Source: a bacterium (lineage in GTDB: Bacteria > CG2-30-53-67 > CG2-30-70-394). From it: a DNA stretch of 32,203 nucleotides. Shown piece after piece: positions 18,163 to 32,203 of this stretch (position 1 is its first letter; every line of letters starts with the position of its first letter). The notes beneath the pieces were generated by a model. The model worked only from the letters and a program-made list of their open reading frames with translations. It was not told where the DNA came from and made no database searches. A program made the translations under genes and the position numbers. Location: NCBI GenBank assembly GCA_024278555.1, contig JAJRSX010000087.1:1-32203 (forward strand). The letters run 5' to 3'.

Positions 18163-19641
18163 ATGGCGAGCGACAACGATCAGGTACGAGCCCGTCGCGA
18201 CAAGGTCGCGGCGCTGCGCGAGGCGGGGGTGGAGCCGTACGCCCGGGGCACCGCCCCGACCCACACCACGGCCGCCCTCCTCGCCGACCACGGCGACGCC
18301 ACCGCCGAGGCCCTCGACGACCAGCCGGTGGAGGTGGGCCTCGCCGGCCGTCTCATGGCCCTGCGGCGCTTCGGCAAGACCACCTTTGCCCACCTCCAGG
18401 ATGGCGGCGGGCGCCTGCAGCTCTTCTTCAACCGCGACCTCCTCGGCGACGCCTACCCCCTGGTGAAGAGGCTCGACCTCGGCGACTGGGTGGCGGTGGA
18501 GGGGCCCCTGTTCCGCACCAAGACCGGCGAACTCACCGTGCGGGTGGAGGAGCTCACCCTGCTCACCAAGGCGCTGCGGCCGCTACCGGAGAAGTGGCAC
18601 GGCCTCACCGACGTGGAGACCCGCTTCCGCCAGCGCTACCTCGACCTGATCGTCAATGAGGAGGCGCGGCAGGTCTTCCGCAGCCGCTCGGCGATCATCG
18701 ACTCCCTGCGCCGCTTCCTCACCGAGCGCGACTTTCTGGAGGTGGAGACGCCGATGATGCACGCCATCGCCGGGGGGGCGGCGGCGCGCCCCTTCGTCAC
18801 CCACCACAACGCCCTGGACCGCGACCTCTACCTGCGCATCGCCCCGGAGCTCTACCTCAAGCGGCTGGTGGTCGGCGGCTTCGAGCGGGTCTTCGAGATC
18901 AACCGCAACTTTCGCAACGAGGGGACCGACCTCGACCACAACCCCGAGTTCACCATGGTCGAGTTCTACCAGGCCCACGCCACCTACGAGCTCCTCATGG
19001 GGATGGTGTAGGAGCTCATCGTGCAGCTCGCCGAGCGCCACGCCGGTGGCCTCAAGCTCACCTGGCACGGTGAGGAGATCGACCTGACGCCGCCGTGGAC
19101 CCGCCTGCCCCTCCTCGACGCGGTGCGCGACCGGGTGGAGGACGGCGACCGGATCATCGCCGACGACGCCTTCGCTCGCGGTGTCGCCCGGGAGCTGGGG
19201 CTGGAGCCCACGAGCGCCGACCCGCACGGTAAGGTCATCACCAAGATCTTCGAGGAGCTCGTCGAGCCGACCCTGATCCAGCCCACCTTCGTCATCGACT
19301 ATCCTGTCGAGGTCTCGCCCCTGGCCCGCCGCAAGGCCGACGCCCCGGAGCTGGTGGAGCGGTTCGAGCTCTTCATCGGCGCCCGCGAGATCGCCAACGC
19401 CTTCACCGAGCTGAACGACCCGGACGACCAGCGCGCCCGTTTCGAAGAGCAGGTGGCGGAGCGCGCTGCCGGCGACGACGATGCCCACCTCCTGGACGAT
19501 GACTACCTTACCGCCCTGGAGCACGGCATGCCCCCGACCGCCGGCTGCGGCATCGGCATCGACCGCCTGGTCATGCTCCTCACCGGCACCGAGTCGATCC
19601 GCGAGGTGATCCTCTTCCCGCAGATGAAGCCGAAGGGGTAG
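18163..19641 (+). CDS. lysS: Class II lysyl-tRNA synthetase interrupted by an in-frame UAG
   Basis: Charges tRNA-Lys with lysine. Read through, the gene encodes about 492 residues, the usual LysRS length. The N-terminal OB-fold anticodon-binding domain (about 55-140) is followed by the class II catalytic core: [18 protein letters not shown] (motif 1 region), [20 protein letters not shown] (motif 2) and [15 protein letters not shown] (motif 3). An in-frame TAG at 19009-19011 splits it between motif 2 (LLMGMV-stop) and the rest ([10 protein letters not shown]), with no frame change. Neither half could be active alone. LysRS usually has Glu or Gln here, so one substitution (GAG or CAG to TAG) explains it. 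AGGAG lies five bases before the ATG at 18163. UAG is used as a normal stop by several neighbours, which argues against general reassignment. Confidence 0.9.
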
Positions 19642-19680: not shown

Positions 19681-19955
19681 CCAACGCAAAAACGCCAAGG
19701 CGCGACCGGACATCAGACCAGGGTGCGGCGTCTCCGGGATGGAGAGTAGGACTGGGTGTGGCCTGGAAGGCGGTTCTCACCACAGAGGCATTGGGGTCAG
19801 GCTTGCAAACTTGCAAGTTTGGACCGTTGGTGGCCAACAGCGAGGTCCAAACTTGCAAGTTTGCAAGGCTGACCCCAGAGGCTGCGGGCCATCGGCATCT
19901 TCCGGTCCACCACCGGTGACCCCGTCCCCCTTGCGCCCCGGCGTCTTGGCGTTGG
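19681..19955. repeat. AACGCCAAG-word foldback hosting a nested repeat
   Basis: Arms CCAACGCAAAAACGCCAAGG (from 19681) and GCGTCTTGGCGTTGG (ending about 19955) are inverse over about 23 bases with four mismatches. Inside it, GTGGCCTGGAAGGCGGTT (about 19758-19775) is the same leader that begins the CCACGGAA elements. The interior also hosts a complete GGGGTCAG foldback. Confidence 0.6.
19793..19876. repeat. GGGGTCAG foldback, copy 1
   Basis: The arms run from GGGGTCAGGCTTGCAAAC to GGACC and back, 33 bases each with one mismatch. The loop contains its own TTGG...CCAA hairpin. It is nested in the larger foldback at 19681-19955. Confidence 0.85.
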
Positions 19956-20829: not shown

Positions 20830-20912
20830 GGGGTCAGGCTTGCAAACTTGCAAGTTGGTCCGTTGGTGGCCATCAGCGAGGTCTAAGTTTGCAAACTTGC
20901 AAGCCTGACCCC
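20830..20912. repeat. GGGGTCAG foldback, copy 2
   Basis: Same ends and loop as copy 1. In the right arm the inner TTGCAA words are in the alternative order (AAGTTTGCAAACTTGC rather than AAACTTGCAAGTTTGC). It is followed directly by another foldback. Confidence 0.85.
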
Positions 20913-26299: not shown

Positions 26300-26519
<220 letters not shown>

Positions 26520-32163: not shown

Positions 32164-32203
32164 GGGGTCAGGCTTGCAAACTTGCAAGTTTGCAAGCCTG
32201 ACC
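32164..32203. repeat. GGGGTCAG palindrome at the window edge
   Basis: From 32166 the last 38 bases form an exact palindrome starting GGTCAGGCTTGCAAACTTG. It carries the ends of the 84-base copies at 19793 and 20830 but lacks their GGACC...GGTCC centre, so it is a shortened form. The window stops inside it. It lies about 60 bases upstream of the ebo operon. Confidence 0.85.

Follow-up and report, generated by a model that had tools for sequence, protein, structure and literature searches.

The in-frame TAG codon that interrupts the lysyl-tRNA synthetase (LysRS) gene of a draft bacterial genome is, in all likelihood, absent from the living organism and represents a base error in the draft; the true lysS would be intact and encode glutamate at codon 283. 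A first-pass annotation of the 32,203-nucleotide stretch of DNA analyzed here (henceforth termed the window) had offered three explanations for this codon: a single-base error, a real nonsense mutation tolerated through another LysRS, or suppression or recoding of UAG. Our analysis of the genome best supports the first, through similar stray stops across the genome. We regard the lysS TAG as most likely a base error because about a dozen similar stops occur in this genome, none of which is found at these places in close relatives, and because no readthrough machinery was detected. Were the stop real, synthesis of an essential enzyme would hinge on readthrough of a stop codon, a remarkable situation; as a probable base error, the TAG is an ordinary finding and most likely not a real feature of the gene.

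The lysS gene occupies window positions 18163-19641 (+) and encodes a class II LysRS in a 492-residue frame that a single TAG interrupts at codon 283 (19009-19011, +). Its 5′ part (18163-19011, +) consists of 282 codons followed by the TAG and carries, according to Pfam and PDB matches, the anticodon-binding OB-fold and motifs 1 and 2. The 3′ part (19012-19641, +) continues in the same frame, contains motif 3, and ends in a TAG as well (19639-19641, +). The assembled sequence thus bears out the earlier description of a TAG that divides an otherwise intact LysRS into two in-frame halves, with motif 2 upstream, motif 3 downstream, and all LysRS motifs present. In the read-through product, the OB-fold and the catalytic domain are full-length in Pfam (PF00152 at positions 2-308 of 308; the PF01336 match is also full-length), the top PDB matches are LysRSs, and the Pfam and PDB matches continue across the internal stop.

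Comparison with relatives supports the integrity of the gene on both sides of the interruption. A congeneric genome (G001) carries an intact, 88% identical ortholog with the same sigma-54 regulator upstream, and the two halves are therefore not a chance pair of open reading frames (ORFs); outside the genus, LysRS identity (measured with the G001 protein) was at most 58% to anything found. Codon 283 is GAA in G001, and among 103 aligned LysRS relatives this position holds Glu in 101, Lys in one, and Gln in one. Across the 108 alignment columns that are at least 97% conserved, codon 283 is the sole departure in lysS. By its full-length domains, complete motifs, and identity to the congeneric ortholog the gene resembles a typical class II LysS, from which it differs by a single in-frame TAG where Glu is nearly invariant. 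LysRS matches in two other genomes (G002 and G039) that seemed to contain internal stops were rejected, as their frames are open to the end and the stops are terminal.

Relative to G001, dN/dS of lysS is 0.28 upstream and 0.21 downstream of the TAG, and the latter value, a sign of purifying selection, shows that the 3′ part is not decaying. The probability that lysS is a decaying pseudogene is accordingly next to nil: one nonsense codon would fit such a history, but the gene has no other lesion, shows dN/dS values of 0.2-0.3 in both halves, and is the only LysRS gene in the genome. A two-piece LysRS, with termination at the TAG, re-initiation at GTG 19021, and assembly of the two halves, is also extremely improbable. 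Natural split synthetases occur in other families, and the stop is directly followed by an AGGAG and, after a 6-nt spacer, a GTG (19010-19023, +), the only plausible restart candidate, which would yield a 206-aa C-terminal fragment. However, this signal is chance coding sequence and is not conserved in G001, which has GTC instead of the GTG; the break would fall just after motif 2, inside the catalytic domain; and similar breaks in unrelated genes leave nothing special about LysRS.

These similar breaks emerged from a codon-usage (coding-potential) scan for in-frame stops flanked on either side by strong coding signal, which covered 1.32 Mb of the draft genome (G000), or approximately 43% of it. 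Candidates were filtered by Pfam searches with the read-through translations, and the lost residue was then taken from orthologs. Many candidates were ordinary gene boundaries, e.g., rpsF-rpsR, motA-motB, and dapA-hisD. Comparison of G001 ORFs with the retrieved G000 contigs showed, besides lysS, three real genes in which a stop replaces Glu. The count of in-frame TAGs in conserved genes, suggested as a check by the first-pass annotation, yielded eleven TAG or TAA codons (lysS counted) within otherwise intact conserved genes in the 1.32 Mb, spread over ten contigs with two on contig C160; besides lysS, the G000 loci of these stray stops are L162:12417, L162:2784, L205:2177(-), L261:7769, L147:2584(-), L251:5953, L061:2681, L263:7224(-), L193:6086(-), and L248:1449. 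Three additional stops, in genes for an FAD-dependent reductase, an NtrC-type regulator, and a beta-propeller protein (L152:2687, L262:9238, and L048:17749(-)), are probably of the same kind.

At the eleven sites, relatives carry Glu in eight cases, Asp in one (probably Glu in this lineage), Gln in one, and Ser in one. Glu was assigned from G001 for lysS (TAG), an RND/MMPL transporter (TAA), a sigma-54 response regulator (TAA), a multihaem cytochrome on C160, motB, an AlaC-type aminotransferase, and an OmpR-type regulator, and from class relatives for a second multihaem cytochrome. The remaining sites lie in dsrE (Asp in class relatives), cbbQ/norQ (Gln, fitting a C-to-T change), and a NAD-glutamate dehydrogenase gene (Ser). 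For three of these stops, in the cytochrome on C160, motB, and NAD-glutamate dehydrogenase, the uninterrupted frame in G001 is stronger evidence than a Pfam domain across the stop. TGA is absent among the verified stray stops.

The same scan applied to 0.27 Mb of G001 yielded no verified stray stop, where approximately 2-3 would be expected at the G000 rate; coming from a control five times smaller, this zero is no more than suggestive. Wherever a G001 ortholog of an affected gene was observed, it likewise lacks a stop at the corresponding site. Comparing individual genes with those of relatives provides a stronger control: for the nine genes tested, none of the top-scoring orthologs in G001-G007 contains an internal stop. 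Frameshift-like breaks numbered one to two in approximately 29,000 aligned codons. The draft genome therefore displays the hallmark of assembly errors, i.e., many isolated stops absent from close relatives accompanied by few frameshifts. A frameshift-like break relative to a G001 ortholog is located at approximately 10322-10332 of L204.

A single G:C-to-T:A change fits 10 of the 11 sites when dsrE is taken as Glu in this lineage, while under equal substitution likelihood such changes would account for about half of all nonsense changes (P about 0.006). Within the G:C-to-T:A class Glu is mildly overrepresented (9/10 versus 57% expected, P about 0.03), and ten such sites would lack TGA with a chance of about one in four. 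Because stops also stand at Gln and Ser sites, UAG cannot have one single sense meaning, and a recoding to Glu only was rejected on account of the same two sites in cbbQ and NAD-glutamate dehydrogenase.

We also searched the genome for components that could read UAG. Its 48 tRNA genes, found with the Rfam model and assigned with ARAGORN, cover all twenty amino acids with standard anticodons, and none of the 48 has a CUA or UUA anticodon. A pattern search for a CUA anticodon arm followed by a T-arm returned six places, all within known tRNAs, and the anticodon stems of the two tRNA-Glu are normal, with 5 bp (sequences judged by eye). For PylS, only background matches were obtained, none above the cut-off. 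RF1 and RF2 are intact with open frames, and loss of RF1 was thus rejected. Among the terminal stops of 540 high-scoring ORFs, TGA occurs 274, TAG 211, and TAA 55 times; TAG terminates approximately 40% of genes in G000, lysS included, and likewise in G001, with nearly equal stop proportions in the two genomes. This normal use of TAG upholds the earlier argument against wholesale reassignment. The RNA 3′ of the lysS TAG shows no unusual structure that could act as a readthrough signal (z-score -0.65), and a literature search for readthrough in LysRS was without result. A tRNA-Sec (G000:C88:6654-6747 (-), L273) was considered as a UAG reader with a changed anticodon and rejected, its anticodon being UCA. 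The presence of this tRNA suggests that the organism probably makes selenoproteins.

With known UAG recoding, i.e., the pyrrolysine system or code 15, in which TAG encodes Gln and which is used by some phages (PMC9523058), the genome shares in-frame UAG codons in several genes. It differs in that neither PylS above the cut-off nor a CUA tRNA was found, TAG is neither avoided as terminal stop nor accompanied by loss of RF1, and the lost residues vary. The option of UAG suppression or recoding is accordingly not supported. A weaker form, in which UAG and also UAA are partly sense, mainly Glu, through an unrecognised suppressor or near-cognate tRNA that allows full-length LysRS to be made, is very improbable in our assessment. 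It would account for the replacement of Glu (or Asp) at eight or nine of 11 sites and for the lack of a verified TGA, but the tRNA complement, the normal tRNA-Glu stems, the intact RF1, and the terminal use of TAG speak against it, as do the Gln and Ser sites, which misfit Glu insertion, and the unremarkable RNA structure. Still less probable is the general proposition that UAG and UAA are normal terminators and yet mostly mean glutamate inside many conserved genes, the sole LysRS gene among them, with no cognate suppressor tRNA involved.

Another source of LysRS was likewise not found. Across the whole genome, a 3.06-Mb draft in 211 contigs that is scored 100% complete, a class II family search identified four places: AspRS (C1), lysS, and two pieces of an EpmA-like lysyl-transferase gene. 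The latter gene is split over contig ends, namely the end of C71, where it adjoins efp (L004), and the start of C160 (L003), and the assembly therefore has a gap there. lysS is the only class II LysRS gene in the draft genome; a whole-genome search with the LysRS N-terminal part as query revealed no second copy, and a search for class I LysK returned only two weak partial matches, which lie in other long frames. These results remove the support for a stop tolerated through another LysRS. It remains improbable, though less so than the readings above, that the sampled population truly carries this nonsense mutation, with a second lysS or lysK concealed in an assembly gap. The 211 contigs leave real gaps, as the EpmA-like gene illustrates, and the G:C-to-T:A changes are compatible with a mutator strain, given that mutY/mutM mutators also leave a G:C-to-T:A signature. 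Such a history would, however, place the missing gene outside a genome scored as complete, sits poorly with the normal constraint seen upstream and downstream of the TAG, and requires that a single strain recently acquired many other nonsense mutations in conserved genes.

We infer instead that the stray stops are errors rather than mutations. One-base nonsense changes that are scattered, that replace at least three different residues, and that no tRNA decodes point to base errors and argue against both recoding and readthrough. The lysS TAG is most likely one of several dozen such errors, the majority of them G:C-to-T:A, that damaged reads or reads of low coverage brought into the draft genome, with oxidative damage or low coverage as the presumable cause. 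Assemblies are known to acquire spurious internal stops through low coverage and low-quality reads, and poor read quality increases such stops to a greater extent than frameshifts (Cooley and Wright 2024, PMC11017572). Oxidation of guanine while libraries are sheared leads to C:G>A:T errors (PMC5521083), and contig titles indicate that a contig coverage of 1-2 occurs among public draft genomes. Like the spurious pseudogenes of PMC11017572, those in G000 consist of internal stops in intact conserved genes, with miscalls outnumbering frameshifts and differences between related assemblies; unlike that study, which re-assembled raw reads, we infer the error from its pattern. Two observations count against a base error: Glu at eight or nine of 11 sites exceeds the expectation of a pure G:C-to-T:A model, and LysRS contains no other unusual conserved residue, although the estimated error rate would predict few of them. 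The draft genome seemingly contains spurious internal stops at a density of roughly 8-11 per Mb scanned, and broken genes in it therefore need a read check before they are interpreted.

Two types of repeats were additionally observed. The palindromic sequence CAAACTTGCAAGTTTG occurs in the window at 19806-19863, 20843-20858, and 32177-32192 and recurs genome-wide, including in L055, L148, L152, L203, L250, L254, and L257, often as pairs approximately 41-42 bases apart; it looks like a REP-type element. At window positions 26414-26519, the 7-base unit CCGCTGA is repeated in 15 perfect tandem copies.
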